IMG/VR virus record: IMGVR_UViG_3300042385_001021
Coordinates: 1-26,725 of that record
Length of the DNA: 26,725 bases
Direction: 5' to 3' (one strand)
Origin: a virus
In this document: one piece after another, positions 20,459 to 26,603 of the stretch
How positions within the stretch are numbered: position 1 is the stretch's first letter
How the letters are laid out: the number at the start of each line of letters is the position of its first letter
Program-made: the position numbers and the translations under genes
Notes under the pieces: model-generated
Told to the model about the DNA's origin: nothing
Seen by the model: the letters and a program-made list of their open reading frames with translations, nothing else
Databases searched by the model: none

Positions 20459-20668
20459 TTATGGATGATTCTTTAAATGATCAATTAAAAGGTCGAACAC
20501 TTTGTCAGTTTTTTGTTCTAGTCTATTCAAGGAGTCTTTCATCGAAGATCCACCATTCGGGCGAAGTTCGGATAAATAATGTTTTACGAGCCACTTGACT
20601 CCGCCTGCAACTAGTGCTAGAATTGATAGCAATGTAAGAATCATTCCCAACCAGTCTTGTGCATTCAT
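20459..20668 (-). CDS. Holin-like one-helix membrane protein
   Basis: The 69-residue protein has one transmembrane helix (residues about 7-28, 'LGMILTLLSILALVAGGVKW'), a short basic stretch, and a helical, charged C-terminus ('MKDSLNRLEQKTDKVFDLLIDHL') that may be a coiled coil. The size and layout fit small phage holins and holin-like proteins of actinophages, but many phage membrane proteins look alike. It is the first gene of the late minus cluster in reading direction, 5 kb from the lysozyme gene. A TGATATAAT box ends 9 nt before its ATG. Confidence 0.55.
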   Translation of the reverse strand: MNAQDWLGMILTLLSILALVAGGVKWLVKHYLSELRPNGGSSMKDSLNRLEQKTDKVFDLLIDHLKNHP

Positions 20669-20677
20669 TGTAGGATT

Positions 20678-20686
20678 ATTATATCA
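20678..20686 (-). promoter_or_regulatory. Extended -10 promoter of the holin-like gene
   Basis: The minus strand reads TGATATAAT, 9 nt, ATG (20668). It is back to back with the plus-strand gene that starts at 20703. Confidence 0.5.
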
Positions 20687-20702
20687 TCATTTAAGGGGAG
20701 TT

Positions 20703-21473
20703 TTGAAAAAAGAAATACTCAGTACGCTTGAATACTCAAAAAATATAATTATATCTCCAGATGTTGATGGTTTAATGAGCGCAACTCTTCTTTCTCGAAA
20801 TTTGGGACATCGAGTCGTCGGCACATATGACAAAAGTATTTTATGTTTGGCGGAAGGTATAAATCCGGCGGAATGTCTGTTCGTAGACTGCGATATGAAT
20901 ACTTCAGAGTTCGCGTCAATTGGAAATCATATGCGACTTATGGAAGATAACATCTGTATCGAATCTTTTAATCCAAATGTTCACTTTGCCACCAAAAAGT
21001 ATAACGAAAAGTTCCCTTACGCAACGTGTTACTTAATCGCGTTCGCAATAGAGGCACAAACCACCACTTTAGACAAACAACGCATGGCATATGCAGATTC
21101 GACATATAAAAATGCTGTCGACTATGCAGAGAATATGCGAAATTGGTCTACTAGGATGGATGATGAGAATGTTCGGTATGTTTTGTCTGATAAAGTGGAT
21201 GTTTCCGAAGTAGCAAAAGAGTATGAAGACAAACAAGGTTTGGTATCTCGTAGACTAGGCTTAGAAAAGTATCTAGTTGAAATGAATACCGCATTAAAAA
21301 AACACTCTGCTTGGAATTTTGCATTTTCTGGGAAATTAACAACAATTAAAAAATATAAAACGGGATTAGTTGACAAAAATACTGCTATACGGTACAATAA
21401 AGATATAATCTCCTATGCTGAAATCTATGGTGGAGAATATAGCGTTACCTACAAGGATTTGGAAGAGGTATGA
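20703..21473 (+). CDS. DHH-phosphoesterase-like protein
   Basis: The protein has 256 residues from a TTG start. The frame is open further upstream, to 20595, but AAGGGGAG lies just before the TTG and the upstream part overlaps the holin-like gene. The N-terminal part resembles DHH-superfamily hydrolases (RecJ/NrnA type): 'IIISPDVDGLMSATLLSR' (Asp20, Asp22) looks like motif I and 'ECLFVDCDMN' (Asp62) like motif II. 'IGNHM' (Asn75, His76) stands where DHH would be. 'ESFNPNVHFA...FPYATCYLIAFAIE' may be the later His/Asn region. If active it would cleave nucleic acids or nucleotides with Mn2+. The altered DHH motif may mean altered chemistry or loss of activity. CpG seems more frequent here than in the late genes, by eye. 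Confidence 0.55.
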   Translation: MKKEILSTLEYSKNIIISPDVDGLMSATLLSRNLGHRVVGTYDKSILCLAEGINPAECLFVDCDMNTSEFASIGNHMRLMEDNICIESFNPNVHFATKKYNEKFPYATCYLIAFAIEAQTTTLDKQRMAYADSTYKNAVDYAENMRNWSTRMDDENVRYVLSDKVDVSEVAKEYEDKQGLVSRRLGLEKYLVEMNTALKKHSAWNFAFSGKLTTIKKYKTGLVDKNTAIRYNKDIISYAEIYGGEYSVTYKDLEEV

Positions 21474-23156: not shown

Positions 23157-23333
23157 TTACTGTGTACCTTGTACCCACCCATTCAATCCTAATAAATCAC
23201 AGTCAACCCGCACCCGTGTTGATTTATTTAATCGTTTAGGCAAGTCATCAACGAATGTCCGCACCTGTGCTAACTGATCGAATGACATCTTTTTTTCTGT
23301 GCCTTGTGTTGTTGTTAGTGTAACTGTTATCAT
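23157..23333 (-). CDS. 58-residue early protein
   Basis: The protein begins 'MITVTLTTTQGTEKKMSFDQ' and ends 'LLGLNGWVQGTQ'. It looks like a compact alpha/beta protein with two beta strands at the ends and a helix 'DQLAQVRTFVDDLPKRL'. The ribosome binding site AAGGAGAATA spans the stop of the previous gene. It is the last gene of the three-gene operon before the terminator. I know no family. Confidence 0.65.
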   Translation of the reverse strand: MITVTLTTTQGTEKKMSFDQLAQVRTFVDDLPKRLNKSTRVRVDCDLLGLNGWVQGTQ

Positions 23334-23455: not shown

Positions 23456-23668
23456 TTAGAGCCCCTTATTCCAGTTATATCTTGACATGATCTCAAGATT
23501 TAACGCTGTCTTTTCTATCTCGCTCATTGAGTCAAGGATAGAGCGACTCTTAGAGATATTTTCTCTAATGCGTAACTTTTCTGAGTTATCTAATTCATCT
23601 CCCCGATATTTTGGAGAGGTACTAGCGTACTCATTGGTTAATTGTTCTTGATTTTCTAAGTAAGTCAT
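23456..23668 (-). CDS. 70-residue early protein
   Basis: The protein begins 'MTYLENQEQLTNEYASTSPK' and is mostly helical and charged (many Glu, Arg, Ser), ending 'LNLEIMSRYNWNKGL'. It is the first gene of the divergent minus operon, with AAAGGGG about 6 nt before the ATG. Small soluble early proteins in this position often target host functions, but I see no motif that identifies it. Confidence 0.7.
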   Translation of the reverse strand: MTYLENQEQLTNEYASTSPKYRGDELDNSEKLRIRENISKSRSILDSMSEIEKTALNLEIMSRYNWNKGL

Positions 23669-23716: not shown

Positions 23717-23771
23717 ATTATACACGAACCAACTGACATTCTCAAATCGAAAATCGGGCGATTCCGGACAT
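23717..23771 (-). promoter_or_regulatory. Early promoter with ATGTCCG and TGTCAG boxes
   Basis: On the minus strand ATGTCCG starts at 23771, TGTCAG starts 33 bp later at 23738, and TATAAT (23722-23717) follows after exactly 10 bp. The same grammar occurs in three plus-strand promoters. The 330-bp gap 23669-23998 holds this promoter, the divergent plus promoter and extra ATGTCCG copies, and no gene that I can support. Confidence 0.6.
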
Positions 23772-23815
23772 ATTGCCAAAGTGTAATGTACCTCACACAA
23801 CAAACTAGGGCAAAA

Positions 23816-23868
23816 CGGACATCGCCCCTGGGCCTGCCCGTGGGCCGTGTCCGAAATGTCCGATTTGT
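23816..23868. promoter_or_regulatory. Cluster of extra ATGTCCG elements and GC-rich inverted segments
   Basis: One ATGTCCG faces minus (23816-23822). A GTGTCCG (23847-23853) and an ATGTCCGATTTGT (23856-23868) face plus. Between them is a GC-rich stretch with repeated GGGCC/GCCC words that can fold. The cluster sits midway between the two divergent promoters. Confidence 0.45.
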
Positions 23869-23903
23869 ACTGTGATGTAACACACATTGAGAGTTTCTAA
23901 AAA

Positions 23904-23968
23904 ATGTCCGATTTGTCTGTATTTAGGTTGACATAACAACTGCAAATGTCAGTGGTGCCTGTTATAAT
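23904..23968 (+). promoter_or_regulatory. Early promoter with ATGTCCG and TGTCAG boxes
   Basis: ATGTCCG starts at 23904, TGTCAG 43 bp later at 23947, then exactly 10 bp to TATAAT (23963-23968), which is also an extended -10 (TGTTATAAT). TTGACAT and ATGTCA around 23929-23951 form an inverted repeat. Confidence 0.62.
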
Positions 23969-23998
23969 AAAACTATAACAACAAGAAAGGTGGTCCAA

Positions 23999-24169
23999 AT
24001 GACTACACTAGTCCTAATGCCCCTAAATCGGTATTATTTAACCGATTATACCCAATTCACCCACTGCGACGAGGTCCAATACCGCCACTATTGCGAAAAG
24101 CATTTCGAGGCGCAAGGTTGCTACTATTGCGAGTTTGACCCTTATGAGCCTTGCGAGTGTGATCAGTAA
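23999..24169 (+). CDS. 56-residue Cys/His-rich early protein
   Basis: The product begins 'MTTLVLMPLNRYYLTDYTQF' and has many possible metal ligands: THCD, RHYCEKH, CYYC and PCECD. The spacing suggests one or two small zinc sites. AAGAAAGGTGG lies before the ATG. The start context (ribosome binding site through MTTL) is nearly identical to that of the next gene, so both were probably copied with their promoters. I know no family. Confidence 0.65.
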   Translation: MTTLVLMPLNRYYLTDYTQFTHCDEVQYRHYCEKHFEAQGCYYCEFDPYEPCECDQ

Positions 24170-24180
24170 CACATTGAGAG

Positions 24181-24245
24181 TTGTCCGATATGTCTGATAT
24201 TTACTTGACATAATCACTGTAAATGTCAGACCCCTCTGCTAGACT
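24181..24245 (+). promoter_or_regulatory. Early promoter, duplicated copy
   Basis: TTGTCCG starts at 24181, TGTCAG 43 bp later at 24224, then exactly 10 bp to TAGACT (24240-24245), preceded by TGC. The spacing is identical to the promoter at 23904. Confidence 0.6.
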
Positions 24246-24279
24246 TACACCATAACAACAAAAAAGAAAGGTGGTCAAA

Positions 24280-24459
24280 ATGACTACATTAACAATAAAT
24301 AAAATCCATACTCATACCCCTCTAGTGAGTGCCATCTCTATCGTTGATGAGGTTGCCTATACTTTCTGTATAGAGTGTGAACAAAATATCGAGTCCTTCT
24401 ATATTGACTTTGATAGCGACCGCTTAGGTCGTTGGAGTAAATGGGAGGTGTCTAAATAA
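24280..24459 (+). CDS. 59-residue early protein
   Basis: The product begins 'MTTLTINKIHTHTPLVSAIS' and contains one CIEC pair and an acidic/aromatic stretch 'SFYIDFDSDRLGRWSKW'. A GTG at 24271 is in frame, but it lies within the ribosome binding site (AAGAAAGGTGG), and the duplicated upstream copy also starts at MTT, so ATG 24280 is preferred. It is the first gene of a four-gene plus operon. I know no family. Confidence 0.65.
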   Translation: MTTLTINKIHTHTPLVSAISIVDEVAYTFCIECEQNIESFYIDFDSDRLGRWSKWEVSK

Positions 24460-24617
24460 TGATGACACGCAAACACTACCAAGAGGTAGCAGATATTCTA
24501 AAAAATACCGAAATGCCTGCTGGCGTTCTTGAAACTTTAATAATGGATTTCTCTGATTTCTTTGAGAGAGATAATCCAAACTTCAATCCAACACTATTTG
24601 AAAAGGCGGTATTCTAA
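24459..24617 (+). CDS. Early 'MTRK' family protein, copy 1
   Basis: The 52-residue protein begins 'MMTRKHYQEVADILKN' and contains 'LIMDFSDFFERDNPNFNPTLFEKA'. It is clearly paralogous to the 25105-25293 product. Similar short proteins ('DYFA.DNP.FD...F..AC') are common in actinophage early regions, from memory, without an assigned function. The start overlaps the previous stop (TAATG). There are no cysteines. It is helical and acidic in the second half. Confidence 0.7.
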   Translation: MMTRKHYQEVADILKNTEMPAGVLETLIMDFSDFFERDNPNFNPTLFEKAVF

Positions 24618-24727
24618 TGAACTATTGGGCACTAATATCTTTCATATCTGCTGGACTCGTTGCGCTTGCTGGCGTGTTAGCCTTTGGCTTATTGCTAAGG
24701 GCTGAGAAATATGGGTGGGATGAATGA
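24617..24727 (+). CDS. 36-residue single-span membrane micro-protein
   Basis: The product 'MNYWALISFISAGLVALAGV' continues LAFGLLLRAEKYGWDE. One transmembrane helix spans nearly the whole N-terminal 27 residues, followed by a short charged tail. It overlaps the previous stop by one base (TAATG) and the next start by four (ATGA region), so it is a real coupled gene rather than filler. The membrane role is unknown. Confidence 0.6.
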   Translation: MNYWALISFISAGLVALAGVLAFGLLLRAEKYGWDE

Positions 24728-24909
24728 AATATAAATTAGATAGTGCGTGTGCGTATTGTCCTGATTGTAATTTTGGTCAGGACTCTTGGGATAGGACTTG
24801 TATCTCTTGCGGTAAACAATCTTTAGTAAGTGGCTTTCGCTATATAGATTTAGTAAATCTAAAGTATGTATATAGTGACGCACCACCACGAGAAATCTTG
24901 GAGGTGTAA
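24724..24909 (+). CDS. 61-residue zinc-ribbon early protein
   Basis: The product begins 'MKYKLDSACAYCPDCNFGQD' and continues to CISCGK, giving a CxxC...CxxC ribbon with one extra cysteine (CAYCPDC, then CISC). The C-terminal half is beta-prone and Tyr/Val-rich. Such ribbons often bind nucleic acid or RNA polymerase. It is the last gene of the 24280-24909 operon. Confidence 0.7.
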   Translation: MKYKLDSACAYCPDCNFGQDSWDRTCISCGKQSLVSGFRYIDLVNLKYVYSDAPPREILEV

Positions 24910-24926
24910 AACCCTTATATTTCAAT

Positions 24927-24951
24927 GTAACGCACTCGGGCGTGTCGTTAC
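24927..24951. promoter_or_regulatory. Imperfect hairpin beside the DnaA boxes
   Basis: GTAACGCAC and GTGTCGTTAC pair around TCGGGC with a single bulged T. No T tract follows directly, so a terminator role is weak. It may belong to the origin-like region or to the 3' end of the preceding operon. Confidence 0.35.
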
Positions 24952-24961
24952 CCCTGGGTTT

Positions 24962-24981
24962 TGTGGATAACTTGTGGATAA
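24962..24981 (-). promoter_or_regulatory. Two tandem DnaA boxes (candidate origin)
   Basis: TGTGGATAA occurs at 24962-24970 and 24973-24981 (reverse complement TTATCCACA, the perfect consensus box), 11 bp apart in the same direction. A partial third (TATGTGG) follows. They lie in the gene-free gap 24910-25016, with AT-rich sequence on both sides. This fits a replication origin or a DnaA-controlled switch. Confidence 0.6.
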
Positions 24982-25016
24982 CTTATGTGGGCTATCTCAC
25001 AAAACTAATTTAAGAA

Positions 25017-25071
25017 ATGTCCGATTTATCCTGATTTTAGATTGGCTATTGTCAGTGGCTTAGGCTAGACT
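25017..25071 (+). promoter_or_regulatory. Early promoter with ATGTCCG and TGTCAG boxes
   Basis: ATGTCCG starts at 25017, TGTCAG 33 bp later at 25050, then exactly 10 bp to TAGACT (25066-25071). The 33-bp spacing matches the minus promoter and is one DNA turn shorter than the two 43-bp promoters. It also fits TTGTCA as a -35 with 17-bp spacing to TAGAAT at 25072. Confidence 0.6.
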
Positions 25072-25104: not shown

Positions 25105-25293
25105 ATGATGACAAGAAAAGACTATGTTAATGTATCGGATATTTTGCGAGCATACCAAGATGAAATACCTCAAACTTTATTCGAGGATTTAATAATGGAT
25201 TTCGCAGATTTCTTTCAAGCAGACAACGACAATTTCTCACCAGAGAAATTTGAAAATGCTTGCTATAATTCTACTATGAAAGTTGGTGCGTAA
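25105..25293 (+). CDS. Early 'MTRK' family protein, copy 2
   Basis: The 62-residue protein starts 'MMTRKDYVNVSDILRAY' and has 'LIMDFADFFQADNDNFSPEKF', matching the 24459-24617 product through most of its length, then a short extra tail. The frame is open from an ATG at 25087, but that would overlap the ribosome binding site (GAAGGGA). The paralogue starts at MMTRK, so 25105 is chosen. It is the first gene of a long plus operon that reaches 26365. Confidence 0.7.
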   Translation: MMTRKDYVNVSDILRAYQDEIPQTLFEDLIMDFADFFQADNDNFSPEKFENACYNSTMKVGA

Positions 25294-26390: not shown

Positions 26391-26404
26391 AATGTCCGAT
26401 TTGT
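26391..26404 (+). promoter_or_regulatory. ATGTCCG element (AATGTCCGATTTGT)
   Basis: This is an exact match to the long form of the motif seen at 23855 and 23903. It lies 18 bp before the -35 box of the next promoter. This promoter lacks the TGTCAG box. Confidence 0.5.
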
Positions 26405-26421
26405 GTAGACTCTCCCATAAT

Positions 26422-26450
26422 TTGACTTTGGTTTAACCAAATGATAAAAT
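26422..26450 (+). promoter_or_regulatory. Promoter with operator-like palindrome in the spacer
   Basis: TTGACT (26422-26427), a 17-bp spacer and TAAAAT (26445-26450) are preceded by an ATGTCCG element. The perfect palindrome TTTGGTTTAACCAAA (26427-26441) fills the spacer and is a likely repressor site. ATG follows 6 nt after the -10 box, so the mRNA is leaderless. Confidence 0.7.
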
Positions 26451-26456
26451 TATCTT

Positions 26457-26603
26457 ATGACAAAAAAGACAGATGAGGAGTTACGTATCCTAATGGAATT
26501 ACGTAGATCTAATGCTGCTTCCTATGTCCCGTCAAAAAAAGTTTACGTACGCAAGAAAAAACACCCCAAATTGTCAGTGCAGGAAGGTATAATAGAATCA
26601 TGA
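26457..26603 (+). CDS. Basic 48-residue protein, leaderless
   Basis: The product begins 'MTKKTDEELRILMELRRSNA' and has a strongly basic middle ('KKVYVRKKKHPKLS'), so nucleic-acid contact is plausible. No ribosome binding site precedes the start, and the -10 box ends 6 nt upstream. Its stop overlaps the next ATG (ATGA). I know no family. Confidence 0.6.
   Translation: MTKKTDEELRILMELRRSNAASYVPSKKVYVRKKKHPKLSVQEGIIES

Follow-up and report, generated by a model that had tools for sequence, protein, structure and literature searches.

A 26.7-kb virus record from IMG/VR (IMGVR_UViG_3300042385_001021; the whole stretch is called the window below) and its relatives carry a promoter element in which the hexamer TGTCRG stands at a single distance from an extended −10 box, the invariant unit being TGTCRG-N7-TGn-TAnnnT. 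A reading of the window made without database searches (the sequence-only reading) had described four early promoters there, each with an ATGTCCG-like box (box A), then TGTCAG and, exactly 10 bp further on, a −10 box. The rigid distance to the −10 box stands, and dozens of related phages have it too, whereas ATGTCCG proves to be an optional part of the unit. On balance, we lean towards reading these elements as a modular class of early-region promoters, belonging to a phage family of freshwater Actinobacteria, that would depend on an activator acting through TGTCRG and be assisted by the cyclic AMP (cAMP) receptor protein (CRP).

Four promoters in the window

We checked the four elements by direct reading of the sequence. 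All are present at the positions and with the spacings reported for them, and each points toward the gene downstream of it. A fifth core promoter is listed with them:

Site 1, + strand: ATGTCCG at 23904, TGTCAG at 23947, TATAAT at 23963 (43 bp, then 10 bp); core promoter TGTCAG-N7-TG-T-TATAAT, 23947..23968
Site 2, + strand: TTGTCCG at 24181, TGTCAG at 24224, TAGACT at 24240 (43 bp, then 10 bp); core promoter TGTCAG-N7-TG-C-TAGACT, 24224..24245
Site 3, + strand: ATGTCCG at 25017, TGTCAG at 25050, TAGACT at 25066 (33 bp, then 10 bp); core promoter TGTCAG-N10-TAGACT, without TG, 25050..25071
Site 4, − strand, divergent: ATGTCCG at 23771, TGTCAG at 23738, TATAAT at 23722 (33 bp, then 10 bp); core promoter TGTCAG-N10-TATAAT, with TTGAGA at the −35 position, 23717..23738
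Fifth core promoter, + strand: TGTCAG-N10-TATAAT, 26572..26593, within the end of a gene for a 48-residue protein and before a gene starting at about 26601

The fifth unit at 26572 (+) had been missed by the sequence-only reading, as had a TGTGNNNTANNTCACA-like palindrome 5' of all four sites and the TGn of an extended −10 at sites 1 and 2 (sites 3 and 4 are without TGn).

The composite [AT]TGTCCG-N17-40-TGTCAG-N10-TAnnnT occurs 4 times in the window and 0 times in 300 shuffles that preserve dinucleotides. WTGTCCG alone is found 9 times where 2.4 are expected, and TGTCAG 19 times compared to 13.8 expected, with no enrichment outside the promoters. Sites 1 to 3 are not independent because they are partly tandem duplicates: sites 1 and 2 form an 85-nt imperfect tandem duplicate (73 % identical) that includes the gene starts, and site 3 has 43 nt in common with both. 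The proof of the spacing rule is therefore taken from the relatives.

This partial paralogy is also what would favour coincidence combined with local duplication, in which promoters were simply copied along with their genes. The shuffles, together with hundreds of divergent contexts, on many contigs, that repeat the spacing, rule out chance or paralogy alone, and we give this explanation a practically negligible probability.

An invariant core in relatives

Two sets of relatives were drawn from IMG/VR, one of 78 loci related to the protein encoded at 20685-21473 of the window and one of at least 119 loci matching TGTCCGATTTGT-N12-42-TGTCAG. With k=7 the pattern TGTCAG-Nk-TGnTAnnnT has 372 distinct contexts over all loci; any other k between 0 and 30 gives 0-6. 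A less biased scan of IMG/VR with spacers of 0-20 gave 32 matches at 7 compared to 1-15 at the others, and its promoter-like matches came from phages with many genes common to this family. The same scan has a second, smaller peak of 15 matches at spacer 13 between TGTCAG and TGnTATAAT.

The position of the hexamer can also be asked of promoters that were not selected for it. Among promoters picked because a CRP-like box accompanies an extended −10, a perfect TGTCAG lies exactly at −16 from the −10 box in 107/205, and at ten other offsets the count is 0/205. Substitutions in the core are tolerated at the fifth base, giving TGTC(A/G/T)G, and are near zero at the remaining positions. As a consensus, the core begins with AATGTC(A>G>T)G and, after a spacer of exactly 7 bp, continues with TGn and the −10 box TAnnnT. 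The TGn just 5' of the −10 hexamer is present in 40 of the 47 non-redundant promoters that have box A. A 107-kb genome (G010) considered as a negative control was dropped, having TGTCGG or TGTCTG in place of TGTCAG.

Nine near-complete genomes and the window together have 62 core sites. In each genome these are confined to a single 15-kb region, and almost all lie on the same strand. Family contigs spanning this region have 5-13 core promoters each; one 79-kb fragment has none.

Two special arrangements were seen among individual loci. In five of them (L245, L292, L303, L324 and L352) a TGTCAG-N7-TGATATAAT core falls within a coding sequence, in its conserved 3' end and right before the next gene start, possibly a promoter embedded in a gene. 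Four variants (L046, L049, L060 and L066) have box A and then, about 49 bp 3', a GTCAG-like element and TATACT, with the canonical TGTCAG-N7-TGn absent.

TGTCRG as a probable substitute for the −35 hexamer

Few promoters with TGTCRG have a −35 consensus: TTGACW was found in 14 of 445, compared to 18 of 136 other extended −10 matches from the same regions. The −35 match is likewise weaker among CRP-anchored promoters with TGTCAG (mean of 3.30) than among those without it (mean of 3.85, p=0.013). If the −10 box is taken as −12 to −7, TGTCRG occupies about −28 to −23, directly 3' of the usual −35 position. Because TGTCRG promoters rarely have strong −35 hexamers, we infer that TGTCRG substitutes for the −35 and is most likely the site of a protein contacting RNA polymerase.

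In T4 middle promoters, a MotA box at about −30 replaces the −35 through MotA/AsiA sigma appropriation (PMC6755090). The promoters described here resemble them in having a phage-specific element at a fixed distance in the place of the −35, in the apparent use of the host polymerase, in keeping a good −10 box (extended in about half of the T4 cases) and in the scarcity of the −35 consensus where the activator box is present, as in the TTGACW counts above. They differ in the sequence of the element, in its centre, which is about 4-5 bp nearer to the −10 than T4's near −30, and in the helically registered palindromes found 5' in the phage family. Because sequence and position differ, the TGTCRG promoters are not members of the T4 MotA/AsiA system. 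Searches for the MotA DNA-binding domain (PF09158) and AsiA (PF09010) gave no match in 14 family genomes, and no control genome matched either.

WhiB proteins are described as exclusive to Actinobacteriota and as a marker of actinophages (PMC10202952). The near-complete family genomes of about 90-119 kb encode WhiB; the family is one of large, WhiB-encoding phages of freshwater Actinobacteria. None of 30 family phage records has a sigma-70 region 2, which was detected in the positive controls, so that a phage-encoded sigma factor was rejected as the reader of these promoters. The core promoter was not found in another WhiB-encoding phage group (0 across six contigs, 191 kb). Since those other WhiB-encoding phages are without the core element, we favour a family-specific, phage-encoded reader, with the proviso that the two WhiB phage groups need not share hosts. 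By the same comparison WhiB alone was rejected as the TGTCRG binder: it is present, but insufficient, since other WhiB phages are without TGTCRG. In one genome of a higher-GC branch (G034, 29109-29300) and its relatives L383-L395, the TGTCRG promoter region itself includes a WhiB gene, besides WhiB elsewhere.

One lead for the reader, and a lead only, is a core protein of about 180 residues that resembles MerR-like helix-turn-helix (HTH) proteins. It is encoded in 9/9 large genomes and 9/10 further family contigs and is absent from the other WhiB-encoding phage group. Five of nine members match Pfam HTH_17, the best at 4.6e-6.

Alternatively, the host sigmaA holoenzyme might itself recognise TGTCRG, a spacer element beside the extended −10, with no extra protein. 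The rigid spacing to the −10 and the location between the −35 and −10 boxes suit this explanation; moreover, in the absence of an injected factor, early promoters must function with nothing but the host polymerase. Sigma-70 extended −10 promoters share the TGn-TATAAT core and the poor −35; they differ by having no additional invariant TGTCRG exactly 7 bp 5' of TGn. To our knowledge, no sigma-70 contact reads six bases at −28 to −23. The absence from the second WhiB-encoding group, whose hosts are possibly similar, and the near absence of the full composite from bacterial genomes (see below) also argue against sigmaA as the reader, and we consider it rather unlikely.

A helically phased CRP/GlxR-like palindrome

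Promoters activated by CRP/GlxR in Actinobacteria carry the GlxR consensus TGTGANNTANNTCACA (PMC4254451). When palindromes from the first set of promoters were scored against it, 24 of 33 reached at least 9/11 as compared with 6 of 1650 shuffles. Such a palindrome is found in 142 of the 445 non-redundant core promoters. Measured from the palindrome centre to the first base of the −10, the distances peak at 52, 62 and 72 bp, with few near 42 and 84; tested for a 10.5-bp period, the phasing gives R=0.64 (n=142). Helical phasing is thus clear for the palindrome, a third element that the sequence-only reading had overlooked. In the window the palindromes are:

23871..23886, + strand: TGTGATGTAACACACA, site 1, 84 bp from the −10
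24158..24173, + strand: TGTGATCAGTAACACA, site 2, imperfect, 74 bp from the −10
24986..25001, + strand: TGTGGGCTATCTCACA, site 3, 72 bp from the −10
23782..23797, − strand: TGTGAGGTACATTACA, site 4, 67 bp from the −10 and off the main phase

The match of the palindrome, its place 5' of the promoter and its helical-turn phasing are as in class I CRP activation. Here the palindrome is found in phages, where it is joined to TGTCRG, and binding is predicted from the motif. A CRP encoded by the phage was rejected as its binder, no cyclic nucleotide (cNMP)-binding domain having been found in 30 family phage records while positive controls were detected. As the phages are without this domain, CRP would be host-encoded; both CRP and sigma are probably supplied by the host.

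Box A is optional and preferentially 33 bp upstream

Box A (ATGTCCGATTTGT) is present in 99 of the 445 non-redundant core promoters. The sequence-only reading had proposed that its distance to TGTCAG is 33 or 43 bp, one helical turn apart. In IMG/VR, the distance from TGTCCGATTTGT to TGTCAG is 33±1 bp in 90 of 121 matches and 43 bp is rare; the histogram has 13, 61 and 16 matches at gaps of 19, 20 and 21 (32, 33 and 34 bp), 6 at 27 and 5 at 30, and the remainder is scattered, mostly coding or without a promoter. The non-redundant distances are 33 (28), 34 (10), 32 (3), 40-41 (3) and 43-44 bp (3), so that 32-34 bp accounts for 41 of 47. The 33±1 bp spacing is firmly established and 43 bp is a minor class; relatives also have boxes at 23-24 and 40-42 bp. 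We therefore retain the first half of the 33-or-43 proposal, find the second under-supported and reject a single helical-phase law for box A, for which support beyond 33±1 is weak. The boxes of the window are:

23904..23916, + strand: box A of site 1 (ATGTCCGATTTGT), 43 bp 5' of TGTCAG
23856..23868, + strand: extra box A 5' of the site 1 palindrome, giving a box-palindrome-box order also seen in relatives
24181..24193, + strand: box A variant of site 2 (TTGTCCGATATGT), 43 bp 5' of TGTCAG
25017..25029, + strand: box A of site 3 (ATGTCCGATTTAT), 33 bp 5' of TGTCAG
23759..23771, − strand: box A of site 4 (ATGTCCGGAATCG), 33 bp 5' of TGTCAG

The sequence-only reading had named boxes elsewhere without the spacing as counting against it. 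Such boxes, with no TGTCAG, do occur in the window, at 23856 (+), at 26392 (+) and inside a gene at 23255; taken literally the claim falls on the first two, and the core grammar survives.

The mechanism first suggested for the spacing was one protein on both ATGTCCG and TGTCAG, bound to a single face of the DNA, the helical phase fixing the distance at 33 or 43 bp. Both boxes do have AATGTCnG in common, 33±1 bp is strongly preferred, and the 24 and 43-44 bp classes are about one turn off. Against this, most core promoters are without box A, distances of 40-42 bp are as frequent as those of 43-44 bp, outside the main peak the test for phase is weak, and the two 43-bp cases of the window are tandem duplicates. 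A one-protein arrangement of this kind seems to us unlikely.

Proposed mechanism and its alternatives

In the activator-dependent reading that we lean towards, the host sigmaA polymerase would recognise the extended −10, and TGTCRG, in place of a good −35 hexamer, would be bound by a protein contacting polymerase, making these promoters functionally comparable to T4 middle promoters. Polymerase would be recruited with the help of host CRP, bound at the phased 5' sites on one face of the DNA. Box A, optional like the palindrome and placed some 33 bp (or else 24 or 40-44 bp) 5' of TGTCAG, may give an extra contact, possibly through the same protein that reads TGTCnG. A more specific version, which would give actinophages a polymerase-appropriation system of their own and in which a phage protein (the HTH_17/MerR-like protein being the lead) reads TGTCRG for the −35 and acts with host CRP, coupling lytic expression to host cAMP, is tentative and in our view doubtful.

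Several points weigh against the activator-dependent, CRP-assisted reading. The label "early" is positional, inferred from the gene neighbourhood. Host CRP is placed at the palindromes by motif similarity, the positions at 52, 62 and 72 bp are about 3 bp off the class I CRP register of E. coli, and a minor group of palindromes at 57-58 bp is off phase. The phasing persists under the strictest redundancy cut (contexts less than 50 % identical, n=43; R=0.60, p about 2e-7), with the caveat that p-values here assume an independence which is overstated given the kinship of the phages. The phase test for box A outside its main peak is weak, as noted. The structure model of the HTH candidate is moderate (predicted local distance difference test, pLDDT, 70.8), matches in a fold search were non-significant, some of them to MerR-type regulators, and co-occurrence with the promoters, to be expected of any core gene, leaves the protein no more than a lead. 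Finally, a rigidly placed motif could also be an operator.

This last point leads to the possibility that TGTCRG, with or without box A, represents operators of a phage repressor silencing early promoters, as in mycobacteriophage L5. The L5 operator also has a TGTCA core. Asymmetric, transcription-oriented sites in early promoters are typical of L5-type repressors, whose operators and stoperators are found in actinophage early promoters (PMC9283540), and box A also occurs away from core promoters. In contrast to the L5 system, TGTCAG is not in excess outside the promoters by the window count given above, so there is no stoperator set, and the core is confined to one 15-kb region per genome. 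TGTCRG is fixed to the −10, while L5 sites overlap a consensus −35, and the scarcity of strong −35 hexamers where TGTCRG is present fits activation better than repression. No tyrosine integrase and no HTH_3 repressor above cut-off was found in 14 family genomes, a search that did not cover serine integrases or other repressor folds. As nothing in the domain families searched points to lysogeny, the lysogeny-repressor reading is lowered, and we judge the operator explanation quite improbable.

The phages of freshwater Actinobacteria have abundant hosts and are known mostly from metagenomes. A promoter code of single-base precision that can be read from sequence makes their early genes annotatable, and yields a prediction, accessible to experiment, about their takeover of the host polymerase. 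The palindromes suggest that a host metabolic regulator (cAMP/CRP) may gate infection. If a phage protein reads TGTCRG, sigma appropriation as known from T4 would have a counterpart in Actinobacteria.

Distribution outside the family

The full composite of box A, TGTCAG and −10 was found at 6 loci in 84,980 prokaryote species. The promoter architecture is complete at three of the six (L203, L205 and L206), whose contigs are assigned to Bacteroidetes, a cyanobacterium and Legionella. Because they carry genes of the phage family, they are probably misbinned phage contigs. Among isolated phages (INPHARED), no relatives were found of the early-region DNA, of a 292-residue protein of the window or of the 48-residue protein.

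The sequence-only reading knew of no described phage promoter with this grammar. Our literature search agrees: the motif was not found and the grammar is previously undescribed, as far as open-access text is searchable. We also found no described transcription programme for phages of freshwater Actinobacteria.

Genes and other features around the promoters

The remaining features of the region are:

23999..24169, + strand: small open reading frame (ORF) after promoter 1 (MTTLVLMPLNRYY...), ribosome-binding site AAGAAAGGTGG
24280..24459, + strand: small ORF after promoter 2 (MTTLTINKIHTHTPL...)
25105..25293, + strand: small ORF after promoter 3 (MMTRKDYVNVSDIL...)
23456..23668, − strand: small ORF after promoter 4 (MTYLENQEQL...)
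24962..24981, − strand: two tandem perfect DnaA boxes (TTATCCACA), just 5' of the site 3 palindrome
26392..26450, + strand: contrast promoter, box A then a near-consensus TTGACT-N17-TAAAAT, no TGTCAG
26457..26603, + strand: gene for the 48-residue basic protein (RRSNAA family), ATG about 6 nt after the −10

The DnaA boxes suggest a candidate host-DnaA origin in the early region because such boxes also lie in or near it in several relatives. This raises the question of whether DnaA boxes and box A serve initiation of replication, with the promoters incidental. Perfect DnaA boxes are present in or near the region in several genomes (the window, G005, G007, G008 and G035). They stand beside only some promoters and in some genomes occur elsewhere too, and the core is linked to gene starts and, with single-base precision, to the −10, a constraint that would be superfluous for an origin iteron. 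We regard an origin as the explanation of these elements as highly improbable.

The gene for the 48-residue protein is possibly leaderless, given the distance of its ATG from the −10. The protein has a conserved LRRSNAA...KK.Y.RK core, is encoded in most family genomes and gives weak matches to phrog_11957 and phrog_2057, where no function is assigned. Its gene usually follows a near-consensus −35 without TGTCAG (19/19 first upstreams). The protein was considered as the TGTCRG activator on the strength of this promoter and set aside, as some members do have TGTCRG and the argument fell.

The 292-residue ORF (20595-21473, + strand) has no Pfam match; it is conserved in 78 IMG/VR loci, and its IIISPDVDGLMSATLLSR resembles a DHH-type motif by eye.

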